From Mycolicibacterium litorale (GTDB lineage Bacteria; Actinomycetota; Actinomycetes; Mycobacteriales; Mycobacteriaceae): a stretch of DNA of 64,000 nucleotides. The notes beneath the pieces are model-generated. The model was given only the letters and a program-made list of their open reading frames with translations. It was not told the origin of the DNA and did no database searches. This document shows positions 1-4,660 of the stretch, in pieces. Position numbers and translations under genes: made by a program. Location: NCBI RefSeq assembly GCF_014218295.1, contig NZ_AP023287.1:4588001-4652000 (forward strand), written 5' to 3'. How positions within the stretch are numbered: the first letter of the stretch is position 1; the number at the start of each line of letters is the position of its first letter.

Positions 1-1
1 C

Positions 2-91
2 GGCTGGTGGCTCTACGACATCTTCTACATCACGCCGTTCCTGGCCATCCCCTACCTGCACTCGGTCAACCGGGAGATCTTCTCCGACTGA
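2..91 (+). CDS. C-terminal end of a multi-pass membrane protein (5' part outside window)
   Basis: Only the last 29 codons are in the window. They encode a hydrophobic helix followed by a polar tail ending NREIFSD. The residues match the C-terminus of the membrane protein at 2863-3597 at 28 of 29 positions (Ser versus Thr). At DNA level I count 7 differences in 91 bases, six of them silent, so this is a recently duplicated paralogue kept under protein-level constraint. It stops 144 bases before the first small gene of the NorD/NorQ-like operon and may be part of the same system. The function is not recognised. Confidence 0.8.
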   Translation, partial: GWWLYDIFYITPFLAIPYLHSVNREIFSD

Positions 92-109
92 GAGGAATGA
101 CTTTACTCA

Positions 110-138
110 TTGACTGCAATCAGTGTAAGGGTTACAAA
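110..138 (+). promoter_or_regulatory. Predicted SigA-type promoter of the NorD/NorQ-like operon
   Basis: A TTGACT box (110-115) and a TACAAA box (133-138) are separated by 17 bases, upstream of the small gene at 236. An imperfect palindrome, TGAnTGCAnTCA (111-122), overlaps the -35 box, and TTAC...GTAA arms (103-106 and 125-128) flank it. This could be an operator for the TetR protein encoded at 4058, but that is inference only. Confidence 0.4.
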
Positions 139-235
139 GAGCGCACCGCCTCACCTCATACCCAACGGTGGGCGCATCCACTGCGCCGGCGGCAGAGACG
201 GAAACGACGTGGACCGACGAACGGGGGGAGCTGAC

Positions 236-343
236 ATGGCGGACTGGATCTGGGAGATTCTGCGTTACGTGGCCGCCTGGGGCGGAACGGGTTTGGTCAT
301 CTGGTTCTGGTACTGGATGTTCTCCAACATCGGCACGTTCTGA
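236..343 (+). CDS. 35-residue single-pass membrane peptide
   Basis: A 35-residue ORF preceded by a strong GGGGGAG ribosome-binding site ending about six bases before the ATG. The product has a short polar N-terminus, then one Trp- and aromatic-rich hydrophobic helix (about residues 9-30). It has no homologue I can name. It is the first gene after the predicted promoter and lies directly upstream of the NorD-like gene, so it may be a small subunit or assembly factor of the membrane complex encoded downstream. The good ribosome-binding site and co-directional position support it as a real gene; coding evidence is otherwise limited by its size. Confidence 0.6.
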   Translation: MADWIWEILRYVAAWGGTGLVIWFWYWMFSNIGTF

Positions 344-386
344 AACCACGTTCTGAAACCACGTTCTGAAACCACGTTCTGAAACC
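335..386 (+). repeat. Four perfect tandem copies of a 13-bp unit
   Basis: The unit ACGTTCTGAAACC is repeated four times without a mismatch, and a partial fifth copy (ACG) touches the ATG at 390. The first copy begins inside the last codons and stop codon of the 35-residue gene, so the repeat arose from the 3' end of that gene. It fills the whole space before the NorD-like gene and contains no Shine-Dalgarno sequence. Confidence 0.95.
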
Positions 387-389
387 ACG

Positions 390-1922
390 ATGTCCGATCT
401 GTCCGATGCCCACGCCATGACGGTAGAGCGACGCTGCGCGCTCATCGCCGTCGCACTGAGCGGACGTCGCCGCGCGGGCGCTCAACTGGTGACCGGACAC
501 CATCGCGGATTCGGCCTCAGCGCCGCACTCGACATGGTCCGTGTCCCCTACCCCGCAATGTGTCGCGACTGGACCCCGCGATCGCTGACGTGCGGTGTGG
601 CGCTGCAATGCTCCCCCACCAAGGACGCTCTCACCGGTTACCGGTTGAACGAGCTGACCACGCGGGAACTCCTCGCGCTGACCCTCGTGGAGGCCGGTGC
701 CGCGGCCCGCTGGGTCGCCTCGAACTGGCCGGGGCTGATCCGCGAGCTGCAACGGTTACTTCCCGATCTCGTCGCCGCGTCGACCGACCTGGACGGCGCG
801 CAGATGCTCGAACATGCGGTCACGCTGGCGCGCACGGGCCGGCCGCTGATCGTCGATCCGCTGCTGGGAAACTTGCCGCGCGCCTACACCGAGCCCCGTG
901 GCGTGGCCGACACCTTACGGCGCACCCTCGGCAGGCTTCCGTGGACGACCACTCAGAAGCGGCTTCCGCGTCCGTATTCCGTTCCGGCGGGCGGGGATGG
1001 CGGTGTGCGCAATACGAATCTGCCACCACCGAGCCGACCGCAGGACAACGATGTCGACATCACCCCGGACCACCGGCCCGGCATCCCGTATCCGGAGTGG
1101 AATGCCTGGACGAGCAGCTTCATACCCGACCACGTCGCGGTGGTGGAACGCAACCACGCCAGTCGGATCCGCCGACCCGCGCCGAGCTCTGCCGAGCTGC
1201 GCATGTGGTTCGAGGAGCACACTCACCGAGCCATGCGCAACCGGTTGGAGGACGGGTCGGATCTCGATGTCGCACAGTACGTCGACCACTTCATCGATGT
1301 GCGGACAGGTGAGGCCGTCGAGCCCCGGGTGTTCCGGGAGTTGCTGCCCAGCAGCCGCGATGTGACCACTGCACTGCTGCTGGACGGCAGCTCGTCGCTG
1401 GGCGTGCACGGCGGCACGATCTTCCGGTTGGAGCTGGCCTGCGCCGACGCGCTGTCGCGGGCGATGACGGCAGCCCGGGAACGCCACGGCATCTTCGTCT
1501 TCACCGGCAACACCCGCCATCGGGTGGAAGTGAGCTGCCTCAAGGACTTCGGGGAACGCCGGTTCGTCCCGCCAGGAAGCCTCGGGCTGACGGCCGGCGG
1601 ATACACCCGCCTCGGAGCGCCGTTGCGGCACCTGACCAGCCGTGTGCTCGCGCAGCCGTCCGAGCGGCGGTTGATCATCGTCATCGGCGACGGCCTGATC
1701 TCCGACGAAGGGTACGAGGGCCGCTACGCCTGGGCCGATGCCGCGCACGCCGTCGACGAAGCGGCCGAAGCCGGAGTGTCCATGTACTACGTCGGTGTCG
1801 GCCCCGCCCGCGTCGACCCGCTGCCGGAGGTGTTCGGCCCGAAGCGATCTCAACGCATTCGGCGCGTCGACGACCTTCCCCGGGTTCTCGCGCATGTCCA
1901 TCGGGAGCTGGTTTCCGCATGA
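390..1922 (+). CDS. NorD-like VWA-domain protein, partner of the adjacent MoxR/NorQ-type ATPase
   Basis: 510 residues. The C-terminal third is a von Willebrand A domain with a complete MIDAS motif D332-G-S-S-S, and it carries the NorD-type signatures YTRLGAPLRH, DGLISDEGYEGRYAW and a final DLPRVL stretch. The N-terminal half is divergent. NorD proteins work with NorQ AAA+ ATPases to activate or insert metal into a target enzyme (non-haem iron in cNOR; the related CbbO/CbbQ pair activates Rubisco). No norB or norC is present here, so the client is probably the membrane protein downstream (inference). The start at 390 lacks a visible ribosome-binding site because the 13-bp repeats occupy that space; Met10 at 417 is an alternative. 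Its 3' end overlaps the ATPase gene by 4 bases. Confidence 0.88.
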   Translation: MSDLSDAHAMTVERRCALIAVALSGRRRAGAQLVTGHHRGFGLSAALDMVRVPYPAMCRDWTPRSLTCGVALQCSPTKDALTGYRLNELTTRELLALTLVEAGAAARWVASNWPGLIRELQRLLPDLVAASTDLDGAQMLEHAVTLARTGRPLIVDPLLGNLPRAYTEPRGVADTLRRTLGRLPWTTTQKRLPRPYSVPAGGDGGVRNTNLPPPSRPQDNDVDITPDHRPGIPYPEWNAWTSSFIPDHVAVVERNHASRIRRPAPSSAELRMWFEEHTHRAMRNRLEDGSDLDVAQYVDHFIDVRTGEAVEPRVFRELLPSSRDVTTALLLDGSSSLGVHGGTIFRLELACADALSRAMTAARERHGIFVFTGNTRHRVEVSCLKDFGERRFVPPGSLGLTAGGYTRLGAPLRHLTSRVLAQPSERRLIIVIGDGLISDEGYEGRYAWADAAHAVDEAAEAGVSMYYVGVGPARVDPLPEVFGPKRSQRIRRVDDLPRVLAHVHRELVSA

Positions 1923-2719
1923 CAGACACCTACTGCGCCAACGGCAACGAGGTCCAGCTCTTCGAGCAGGCGTTCCACCAGCGACTACCTGTCATGCTGA
2001 CCGGCCCGACCGGATGCGGCAAGACGCGGCTCGTCGAGCACATGGGGTCGCTGCTGGGGCGGCCGGTGGTCACCATCAGCTGTCACGACGATCTGACCAG
2101 TTCCGATCTCGTCGGTCGATTCATGATCACCGGCGGCGACGTGGTGTGGACCGACGGCCCACTCACTCGGGCGGTCAAGGCCGGAGCGATCTGCTACCTC
2201 GACGAAGTCGTTGAGGCGCGCCACGATTCGCTGGCCATCCTGCACTCGCTGACCGATCATCGACGGGCTCTGTACCTCGACCGCGCCGGTGAGGTCGTCG
2301 AGGCACCCGAGGCGTTCATGCTCGTGTGTTCGTACAACCCCGCCTACCGCAGCTCGCTCAAGGAGCTCAAACCGTCCTTCCGCCAACGGTTCGTGACCCT
2401 GCCGATGCGGTACCTGCCCCCTGATCGGGAAGCCGCGGTCATCGTCGCCGAGACCGGCATCGACGAGCGGACCGCCCATCGACTGGTGCGGTGCGCCACC
2501 GCGATCCGCACCGCTGACGACGTGTTCCACTTCGAGCCGCCGTCCACCCGGGTGCTCGTCACCGCGGCCGCGCTGATCGCCGCTGGGGCCGCCGCACCGG
2601 AGGCCGCGGAGGCATGCATCCTGGCCCCACTGTCCAGCGACGGCGCCATCACCGAAGGCCTGCGCGAACTGGCGGTGGCCAGCCTCGGCGACACCGACGA
2701 CTCGAACACCGCCCTTTAG
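1919..2719 (+). CDS. MoxR-family AAA+ ATPase, CbbQ/NirQ/NorQ/GvpN type
   Basis: 266 residues with Walker A GPTGCGKT (29-36), Walker B YLDE (93-96) and a following region that handles the client (SYNPAYRSSLKELKPSFRQRF), all typical of the CbbQ/NorQ/GvpN branch. These ATPases form hexameric rings and remodel a dedicated target enzyme with a VWA partner. The ATG overlaps the stop of the NorD-like gene (ATGA), which implies translational coupling and equimolar production. The next gene follows after a strong AGGAAGGAG site. The family assignment is secure; the substrate is unknown. Confidence 0.9.
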   Translation: MTDTYCANGNEVQLFEQAFHQRLPVMLTGPTGCGKTRLVEHMGSLLGRPVVTISCHDDLTSSDLVGRFMITGGDVVWTDGPLTRAVKAGAICYLDEVVEARHDSLAILHSLTDHRRALYLDRAGEVVEAPEAFMLVCSYNPAYRSSLKELKPSFRQRFVTLPMRYLPPDREAAVIVAETGIDERTAHRLVRCATAIRTADDVFHFEPPSTRVLVTAAALIAAGAAAPEAAEACILAPLSSDGAITEGLRELAVASLGDTDDSNTAL

Positions 2720-2734
2720 GAAGGAGCCGCCGCC

Positions 2735-2866
2735 ATGGTGGATCAGAAGGAGAAGAAGCGCAAGAAGGCGCTCATCGTCCTGCAGATCGTCATCTACGGC
2801 TACCTGTTGTCGATGTTCCTCATCCAGCTCTACATGTCGTTCGCCCGCGGTTGGTGGGAATTGTGA
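2735..2866 (+). CDS. 43-residue single-pass membrane peptide
   Basis: A short ORF with an excellent ribosome-binding site (AGGAAGGAG, 2718-2726). The product begins with a very basic stretch (residues 4-11, KEKKRKKA except for Glu6), then one hydrophobic helix (about 12-34) and an aromatic C-terminus. The charged N-terminus predicts a cytoplasmic N-end. It overlaps the next membrane-protein gene by 4 bases (GTGA), which strongly suggests that the two are translated together and may form one complex. It shows no resemblance to the 35-residue peptide at 236 and no recognised family. Confidence 0.7.
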   Translation: MVDQKEKKRKKALIVLQIVIYGYLLSMFLIQLYMSFARGWWEL

Positions 2867-3597
2867 ACTTCCCGACGCCCAAACGCACTTCGGGCCCAAC
2901 CGCCACGGCGACCGGCCCGCCCGGCGGGTCCCCCAGTCTCGAGGAGCATCACGAGGATTCGCGGCTGGCGCAGCGCCGCGCGGACAAGTGGATGATCACC
3001 GGTGCCGCGCTCATGGGCATGTGGGCCCCTGGGGTCATCGGCTTCCCGATCTTCATGCGCGGCGTCTGGCTGCAGCGGCAAGCCCTCCGCGCGGGCTTGT
3101 CGGTGCGGCCGATGATCGTCACGCTGATCGGCTACCTGGTGCTGATCGACGGCATGCTCAACAGCCTCGGCTGGGCGCTCGATCTCGTCGCGAACCACAC
3201 CCTGATCAACCGGGTGCTGATGGTCGGCTGGGGCGCGATGTTCGACGCCGGCTACTTCTGGCACTACAACGAACTGTGGGTCGGCGGCGCCGCCGGGCCC
3301 GGCGAGAAGTCGATGGTGTTCGGCATGATCGTCACCGTTTTCGCGATGCGCTGCGCCGCCGCGATCGGGTTCCTGCAGATGAAGCGCTGGGGCCACCAGT
3401 GGATGATCGTCACCTGCTGGATGGGTGTGCTGATCTGGTGCGTCTACGTGTTCAACATGACCATGTTCGCCGACGTGCGTTTCGCCGGCGTCATCTTCCC
3501 CGTGGTCGGCTGGTGGCTCTACGACATCTTCTACATCACCCCGTTCCTCGCAATCCCCTACCTGCACACCGTGAACCGCGAGATCTTCTCCGACTGA
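2863..3597 (+). CDS. Six-helix membrane protein of unknown family, candidate client of the NorD/NorQ-like pair
   Basis: 244 residues from a GTG that overlaps the preceding stop codon. After a polar, Pro-rich N-terminus of about 40 residues come roughly six hydrophobic helices. Polar and potentially metal-binding residues lie in or beside helices: an Asp in LIDGML and a cluster [11 protein letters not shown] near the middle. It is not similar enough to PmoA/AmoA, PmoC, NorB or AveC-type proteins, as I remember them, for me to assign it. A near-identical C-terminus ends at position 91, so the gene was duplicated. A MoxR/VWA pair encoded directly upstream suggests an enzyme needing cofactor insertion or remodelling, but this is inference. 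Confidence 0.8.
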
Positions 3598-3607
3598 AGG
3601 AGCCGAC

Positions 3608-4012
3608 GTGACAACCACCGAAGAGAAGGCCGACGACCTGGCGCCCGGCACCACGCCCTACTACGCACGGATGCACAAGTGGATCAAACGAGCCGTCCTG
3701 GTGTGCCTGGTGGCATTGGTCATCGAGGGAGCGTTCACGCTGCCGTTCATGGCGGTCTACTACGGGTATCCGACGCTGAGCCTGACCGAGATATGCAGTG
3801 AGCTCTTGAAGGTGCGCTACTCCGACGACGCGCTGGAGTGCCAGGTTCCGTACCCGGCGTTGGGCGCGCCCGAAGGCGCCGAGGGCAAGGACACCGCCCA
3901 GGACGAATGGGGCATCCAACCGGTACCGAAGTACAACCGCATCGGGTTCCGTGAACTGGTGCGGATCCACGAGGAGCGCGAAGCACGTATGGCGGCCTCG
4001 AACCCGGATTGA
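3608..4012 (+). CDS. Membrane-anchored protein, last gene of the NorD/NorQ-like operon
   Basis: 134 residues from a GTG preceded by AAGGAG (3597-3602). One hydrophobic helix (about residues 28-50) follows a short cytoplasmic-type N-terminus with basic residues, and the remaining 85 residues form a polar domain with two cysteines (ICSELL and LECQVP). The orientation suggests an extracytoplasmic C-terminal domain in which the two cysteines could form a disulfide. It lies 10 bases behind the six-helix protein and is best read as a further subunit. No known family is recognised. Confidence 0.75.
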
Positions 4013-4044
4013 TCCGGCCGGCGAACCGCCCGCGGTGTCAGCGA

Positions 4045-4050
4045 TAGAGT
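4045..4050 (+). promoter_or_regulatory. -10 box of a probable leaderless TetR transcript
   Basis: TAGAGT matches TAnnnT and ends 7 bases before the ATG at 4058. No ribosome-binding site is present, so the transcript probably begins at the start codon. No clear -35 box is seen. Confidence 0.45.
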
Positions 4051-4057
4051 CGGGGAC

Positions 4058-4660
4058 ATGGCAGTCGCGAACAGACCGTCGGCTCGTGAGACCAGGCGTC
4101 TGCAGACGCGAGAGCGGCTCTTGGGCGCGGCGATCGCCGAGTTCAAACGGTCGGGGATGGCCGAAGCCGACGTCGCCGCGATCGTGGCTGCGGCCGGAGT
4201 TGCCCACGGCACCTTCTTCTTTCACTTCCCCACCAAAGAGCATGTACTCCTGGAGCTCGAGCGGCGCGAGGAGGAGCGGATCGCCAAACAGCTTGTCCGA
4301 TACGCCGGCTCTAATGGCGACCTGGCCGACATCCTGCGCGAATCGGTTCGTCTGGTTCTCGGGCTCGAGCGCCGGCTCGGCGCTGTGCTGTTCAAAGACT
4401 TTCTTGCACTGCACTTCTCGCAGACGCGACCGCCGGCGGAGGAGAGCATGGAGCATCCGGTGATCATCGCGGTCGCCGAACAGATCAGGTTGGCGCAGGA
4501 CGTGGGCAGCGCCGACGAGGACGTGGATGCCATGAACAGCGCGGTGTTCTTCCTGCTCGGACTCTACGCTTTGCTGACGACCACCCACGGCTGGCCGACC
4601 CAGGCCGCGATGCTCGACGACTACGTCATCAGGACGCTGCGCAGCATCGGCGTCTCGTGA
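4058..4660 (+). CDS. TetR/AcrR-family transcriptional regulator
   Basis: 200 residues. The N-terminal helix-turn-helix is typical (RERLLGAAIAEFKRSG, then an HGTFFFHFPTKEHVL recognition segment, about residues 20-65), followed by an all-helical ligand domain. It is encoded directly after the NorD/NorQ-like operon on the same strand but behind its own -10 box. It is the obvious candidate regulator of that operon. The effector is unknown. Confidence 0.88.
   Translation: MAVANRPSARETRRLQTRERLLGAAIAEFKRSGMAEADVAAIVAAAGVAHGTFFFHFPTKEHVLLELERREEERIAKQLVRYAGSNGDLADILRESVRLVLGLERRLGAVLFKDFLALHFSQTRPPAEESMEHPVIIAVAEQIRLAQDVGSADEDVDAMNSAVFFLLGLYALLTTTHGWPTQAAMLDDYVIRTLRSIGVS

Follow-up and report, generated by a model that had tools for sequence, protein, structure and literature searches.

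A conserved mycobacterial gene set links a NorQ/NorD-type pair with six-helix membrane proteins of predicted EXPERA-like fold

Gene content and conservation of the locus

We analyzed a 64,000-nucleotide stretch (hereafter the window; positions 4588001-4652000 of the 5.63-Mb single-contig genome) of Mycolicibacterium litorale, which opens with a block of genes encoding a NorQ/NorD-type pair, two short peptides, an anchored protein, and a six-helix membrane protein that we term TM6. An initial annotation, made from the sequence alone, had listed the one-helix peptides, NorD, NorQ, one six-helix protein, the anchored protein, and a TetR gene, and all of these open reading frames (ORFs) are present at 236-4660. 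The gene set is thus right as first noted and larger than reported: a first copy of the six-helix protein, TM6a, had been overlooked because the window edge cuts its gene and leaves the final 91 bases alone inside. The features, in window coordinates, are as follows.

1..91, plus strand: 3' terminus of the gene for TM6a, the first of two six-helix proteins of predicted EXPERA fold (L003:15360-16091 in full, beginning beyond the left edge of the window); 75% identical to TM6b
98..122, no strand assigned: two candidate operator sites, TGACTTTACTCA and TGACTGCAATCA, before pepA, from a motif search
236..343, plus strand: pepA, a 35-residue one-helix peptide ending in GTF; start at 236 taken from the sequence, consensus over 79 loci
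390..1922, plus strand: NorD-type VWA protein of 510 residues, with metal ion-dependent adhesion site (MIDAS) residues D332, S334, S336, T406, and D434 and a subfamily-specific N-terminal part, from the ORF and alignment to the solved NorD
1919..2719, plus strand: NorQ-type MoxR AAA+ ATPase of 266 residues, Walker B E96; 4.1e-80 to the solved NorQ 9qh4
2735..2866, plus strand: pepB, a 43-residue one-helix peptide with a Lys/Arg-rich N terminus, from the ORF, conservation, and codon changes
2863..3597, plus strand: TM6b, second six-helix protein of predicted EXPERA fold; D96, D128, Y131, E148, and R206 invariant over 130 relatives
3608..4012, plus strand: anch, a one-helix anchored protein, from the ORF and conservation; in some distant loci fused with a helix resembling pepA
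4058..4660, plus strand: TetR-family regulator (PF00440, 7e-11)

The ORFs confirm two further details of the initial annotation, the D332-G-S-S-S motif of NorD and the 4-base overlap of NorD with NorQ; pepB and TM6b likewise overlap by 4 bases, TM6b starting with GTG. Scans of the window with Rfam and for tRNAs gave no match.

To place the gene set in a wider context, a genome collection was scanned with the TM6 alignment, which confirmed 339 loci, of which the best 80 were kept (the named loci). Because they are the best-matching loci and, with the exception of Aldersonia (L051), Mycobacteriaceae by title, they are not independent. The order TM6a-pepA-NorD-NorQ-pepB-TM6b-anch on a single strand is found in 79 of the 80; in the exception, L061, a contig end falls inside NorD and the locus begins there. 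Both pepA and pepB behave as genes: identity across the named loci is 78-97% for pepA and 70-91% for pepB, the length from the first start is 34-35 residues in 51/79 loci and 42-43 residues in 56/80, respectively, and the synonymous share of codon changes, for which no null expectation was computed, is 73% for pepA (79 loci) and 55% for pepB (80 loci), with 72% for anch (63 ungapped loci). A perfect 13-base tandem repeat (4.3 copies, window 334-389) spans the end of pepA to the start of NorD; at least two exact copies of its unit were found in none of the 80 named loci.

The two TM6 copies appear to descend from one old duplication, because a fully supported branch separates them in a quick tree: TM6b rows form one clade with a Shimodaira-Hasegawa-like approximate likelihood ratio (SH-aLRT) support of 100, and TM6a rows form a clade at 93 that includes two database proteins. 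Outlying relatives (L118-L121 and L138) have a single TM6 over the stretch that was read. Within the genome of the window, TM6a and TM6b are identical in their 3' halves at 53-59 of 60 positions per 60-base block, compared with 28-46 of 60 in the 5' half, and the near-identity of the 3' halves therefore looks like gene conversion. Position 152 is Glu in 79/79 TM6a and Val in 80/80 TM6b proteins, which makes it unlikely that one copy can stand in for the other.

The start codon of TM6a is preceded by a perfect palindrome, TGACTATAGTCA, that begins 18 bases ahead of it (L003:15342), and the operator-like pattern has two matches in the 64 kb compared with 0.10 expected, a number also reached in 3 of 100 shuffles. 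Sites resembling TGACTnnAGTCA, a pattern picked after the window site had been seen and counted over related loci, lie upstream of TM6a in 57/79 loci and of pepA in 25/79 (shuffle means 0.08-0.15), and upstream of TM6b and of anch in 0/80 each. Because TetR relatives flank TM6a and pepA (before TM6a in 62/79 loci, with a second one between TM6a and pepA in 30/79), these sites are likely, as candidates, a TetR operator. No TetR relative was found within 1.5 kb after anch in the 80 named loci; the window TetR gene lies behind anch, its closest relatives in most loci before TM6a, and the gene therefore seems to have moved.

The NorQ/NorD pair and its linkage to TM6

The window NorQ matches AAA_5 (1.3e-36) and CbbQ_C (5e-22) in Pfam, its Walker A motif starts at residue 29, and its Walker B motif is D95-E96. 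It aligns with the solved NorQ 9qh4 over 253 residues without a gap, with E96 at position 109 of the latter. The NorD protein scores 22.4 bits for Pfam VWA, just below the 23.8-bit cut-off; residues 230-509 match the solved NorD at 9.8e-29, and T406 and D434 align with its MIDAS residues T534 and D562, whose mutants retained 2% and 4% activity (PMC9976466). In sequence comparison with phmmer, the first 216 NorD residues had no match to the solved NorD, the match beginning at residue 217 or 230. The same study suggests that the NorD N-terminal domain confers client specificity (PMC9976466), and a NorD without a sequence match to the canonical N-terminal domain is in line with another client.

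The pair shares with NorQ and NorD of nitric-oxide reductase (9qh4-9qhg) the MoxR AAA+ protein with CbbQ_C, the VWA partner with its MIDAS, the adjacency of the genes, and a membrane client. It differs in the sequence of the NorD N-terminal part, in its linkage to an EXPERA-like protein and three small membrane proteins, and in having no norCB in the operon. As the initial annotation had stated of norBC and cbbLS, no norCB gene occurs among the ORFs of the operon or those flanking it on the left, and the genome lacks any PF00016 (RuBisCO) match. The two strong PF00115 matches in it both lie far from the operon and are presumably ordinary terminal oxidases. To our knowledge, NorQD-type motors are known for few clients.

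We then compared the occurrence of TM6 with that of NorD. TM6 is present in 18 of 296 sampled genomes of the class and 9 of 396 of the phylum; in the class of genome G407 it was found in one of 249 sampled genomes, G407 itself. With TM6 in 12 of the 18 own-genus genomes among those listed, the block is probably accessory, as had been proposed. At E 1e-100 or better, this NorD has full-length relatives in 17 of the 296 class genomes. TM6 is present in 16 of the 17; in the remaining one, G284, the contig stops after NorQ residue 139. This linkage bears out the earlier idea of a NorQD-type pair with a dedicated membrane client. TM6 without this NorD was found in G012 and G069 of the class sample. 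The initial annotation had named NorQ/NorD homologs that regularly lack these membrane genes as evidence against its proposal: such pairs do exist, but their NorD paralogs in the class sample align over the VWA half only (residues about 200-508).

Predicted fold of TM6 and the neighboring genes

The initial annotation had called for structure prediction of the six-helix protein, of which there proved to be two copies; the predicted fold most resembles EBP/sigma-2 (EXPERA). With a deeper, family-wide TM6 model (predicted local distance difference test score, pLDDT, 91), ranks 1-7 of the structure search were all EBP sterol isomerase and sigma-2 receptor. Because two separate EXPERA families fill the top seven entries, TM6 is probably a remote EXPERA-fold protein, with the caveat that the model is predicted and the fold a helical bundle. 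The predicted fold is shared with EBP, the 3-beta-hydroxysteroid delta8-delta7 isomerase (6oht and 8w0r), over 165-175 residues and with sigma-2 receptor/TMEM97 (7m93 and 7mfi) over 148-149 of 159 residues. TM6 differs from EBP in an extra N-terminal helix, in its partner subunits and AAA+ pair, and probably in its catalytic residues, at 7-9% identity; sigma-2 receptor has four helices compared with six in TM6, and we know of no chaperone or small subunits for it.

Some TM6 relatives are named EXPERA or emopamil-binding in UniRef. The Pfam family PF05241 reached TM6 with a best E of 0.21, in 1 of 24 members. Its cut-off misses remote members, because mycobacterial A4-type proteins also fall below it yet match EBP at 5.1e-9. 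Comparison of TM6 with the A4-type proteins by hhalign gave a weak match (0.7%, collinear over 163 columns), and in sequence profiles hhalign, again as a weak match, pairs TM6 D128/Y131 with a DxRY motif and residue 152, rather than E148, with the later Glu, which bears on the catalytic His/Glu/Glu set of EBP.

Other candidates were set aside. A rhodopsin-like fold topped the first, shallow model (pLDDT 68), and no rhodopsin is among the matches listed for the deeper model; a copper membrane monooxygenase (CuMMO)/PmoC-like or desaturase-like enzyme, considered on the basis of motifs, is likewise not among these listed matches, which is no proof of absence. A deeper bacterial EXPERA profile had matches in 6 of 197 genomes, too few to build.

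Pathway-like genes surround the named loci. Within 10 kb of the 80 loci (one representative per cluster scanned against Pfam; raw counts with no random-locus control), P450s of three clusters lie near 66, a PF19328-like reductase cluster near 61, and an ERG2/sigma-1-like cluster near 19 (for example L015:13614-14213; representative PF04622, 7.8e-30). The same sterol step is catalyzed by ERG2 in fungi and by EBP in animals. PF04622 occurs in 7 of the 296 class genomes, of which 6 have TM6, in 5 of these less than 7 kb from TM6b; none was found in the window's own genome. Left of TM6a, the window genome has two acyl-CoA ligase genes, short-chain dehydrogenase/reductase (SDR) and GntR genes (named by eye), and a lactonase/Vgb-type gene, beyond which lie SDRs, a Rieske oxygenase, and a Baeyer-Villiger-type flavoprotein. 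The acyl-CoA ligases score above 100 bits in 31 and 33 of the 80 named loci.

The genome has a second NorQ/NorD pair (L195:1857-8286; 3771856-3778285) behind an AveC-like spirocyclase (PF17198, 5.6e-97), with P450-type, Rieske, and A4-type EXPERA genes nearby, the A4-type protein itself being without a Pfam match. AveC or an AveC-like protein adjoins such pairs in all six longer loci read (L195, L197, L198, L199, L202, and L203), the proteins of L197 and L202 being distant relatives only and that of L197 without a Pfam match. These actinobacterial systems thus share with the TM6 locus a multi-helix membrane protein beside a NorQ/NorD pair and, in the genome's own case, nearby P450, Rieske, and EXPERA genes, but their NorD is of a different subfamily and no sequence relation of TM6 to AveC was found. 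A homology of TM6 and AveC had been considered on the basis of a shared D-x-x-x-N stretch, for which hhalign found nothing, as it did for AveC against bacterial EXPERA. Nor is EXPERA beside NorQD a rule: among five same-genus genomes with A4-type proteins, NorQD lies within about 5 kb in three (L195, L198, and L199) and not in two (L200 and L201).

A possible membrane enzyme and the alternatives

We tentatively favor, at a little less than even confidence, a multi-subunit EXPERA-fold membrane enzyme for sterol- or terpenoid-like substrates that is remodeled by its dedicated NorQD. TM6a, TM6b, and the single-helix proteins pepA, pepB, and anch would assemble into one membrane complex, in which the conserved acidic and polar residues D96, N100, D107, H112, D128, Y131, and E148 (located between mid-helix 3 and the beginning of the helix at 146) would line a pocket. 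The pocket may bind a hydrophobic substrate of sterol- or terpenoid-like type and convert it in one step of an oxidative catabolic pathway. NorQ, as a hexameric motor, and NorD, as its VWA adaptor, would dock from the cytoplasm and remodel TM6 into its active form. This last step is modeled on the action of NorQD on nitric-oxide reductase, in which NorQ twists NorD via a finger in the pore, leading to insertion of iron into the reductase (PMC13036017). Several observations weigh against the favored scheme: profile searches gave no significant sequence match of TM6 to EXPERA; the Rieske and Baeyer-Villiger genes beside the window are not shared, scoring above 100 bits in 0/80 and 1/80 named loci; and pepA and pepB in distant loci were recognized mostly by eye, from size, helix, and place.

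The distant forms bear on what the motor does. In L118 and L138, TM6, NorD, NorQ, and small one-helix ORFs occur in a different order. In L116 and L117, TM6 is followed by a PF00004 AAA ATPase with AAA_lid_3, and the anch-like protein bears an extra pepA-like helix; L116 also has COX3 and COX4_pro family genes, of NorE/NorF-like kinds (L116:4290-5217), a few kb ahead of TM6 and the AAA gene. L115 and the Mycobacterium branderi plasmid locus L185 have TM6 with a two-helix anch-like/pepA-like protein, and no NorQ- or PF00004-type ATPase is among the genes read there, partly by eye and partly from annotation. The third TM6 of G258 (L122) has pepA, pepB, and anch with no NorQD adjoining. Run against 1733 small ORFs from ten loci, the pepA profile was significant in L119-L122 (0.17 in L138 and 0.44 in L118), that of pepB in L119-L122 only, where matches to longer ORFs in L119 and L121 may stem from overlong alignment rows, and that of anch in L119, L121, L122, L116 (3.9e-4), and L117 (2.6e-4), with 0.24 in L115. 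What stays the same across these forms is TM6 and, likely, the small partners; what differs is the motor. Replacement of NorQD by a PF00004-type ATPase in L116/L117, and its absence beside TM6 in L115, L185, and L122, would suit a NorQD that is only an assembly or quality-control chaperone of the membrane complex and leaves the active site unaffected. The subfamily-specific NorD N-terminal part and the linkage in 16 of 17 genomes fit a specific client step instead, and we regard the chaperone-only role as rather unlikely.

Residue conservation bears on whether TM6 holds a metal. Over 130 TM6 relatives, grouped by the search that brought each protein in and not by neighborhood, D96, D128, Y131, E148, R206, and W218 are present in all, N100 in 129, D107 in 127, and H112 in 122; H134, E137, and C185 are present in 49/49 of the main group and not conserved elsewhere. 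A carboxylate/histidine site that takes iron or another metal from NorQD, like FeB in nitric-oxide reductase, could use D96, D128, E148, D107, and H112. The NorQ/NorD pair is, among solved structures, nearest to the FeB-inserting pair (PMC13036017 and PMC9976466), and in L117 a Rieske ferredoxin-type gene (L117:8233-8541) adjoins the PF00004 AAA gene that follows TM6. On the other hand, the 52 relatives of the kind found in L115, L116, and L117, where the neighborhoods read lack NorQD, have these residues too. EBP is not known to need a metal, and neither EBP nor sigma-2 is known to have a catalytic one. In the 11-residue polar stretch on which the initial annotation had built its membrane metalloenzyme, every relative has D128 and Y131, nearly all have N136, and conservation of H134 and E137 is confined to the main group. 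The metalloenzyme is putative, and we consider it unlikely overall.

A sterol or lipid carrier or receptor of sigma-2/TMEM97 type, supplying or sensing substrate for nearby oxidases, is improbable, as polar residues that are near-invariant across distant families and a motor pair seem more usual with enzymes. Equally improbable is a chance resemblance between helical bundles, with TM6 belonging to a new and unrelated membrane family, as the missing sequence match would allow, given that two separate EXPERA families fill ranks 1-7 and that UniRef names some relatives accordingly. More doubtful still is that TM6a and TM6b form the first EXPERA-fold metallo-oxygenase, with NorQD-loaded iron at D96, D107, H112, D128, and E148, structural or electron-transfer subunits in pepA, pepB, and anch, and sterol- or terpenoid-like substrates.

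Among the papers listed in literature searches, we found none linking emopamil/EXPERA proteins with MoxR or NorQ, and the two naming both AveC and MoxR were unrelated by title. An EBP/sigma-2-like predicted fold is here paired with NorQD in a conserved gene set that includes three uncatalogued small membrane proteins, and the motor, kept, replaced, or absent across lineages, offers a natural series for the effect of MoxR/VWA proteins on a membrane client. The AveC-type pairing of the other NorQD systems suggests that such motors may more widely serve terpenoid- or polyketide-like membrane enzymes. Overall, the gene set, which is carried by many environmental mycobacteria, suggests a membrane machine that has so far escaped study and may act on steroid- or terpene-like molecules; if its substrate is a steroid or terpenoid, it would represent an unrecognized step in the catabolism of these bacteria.

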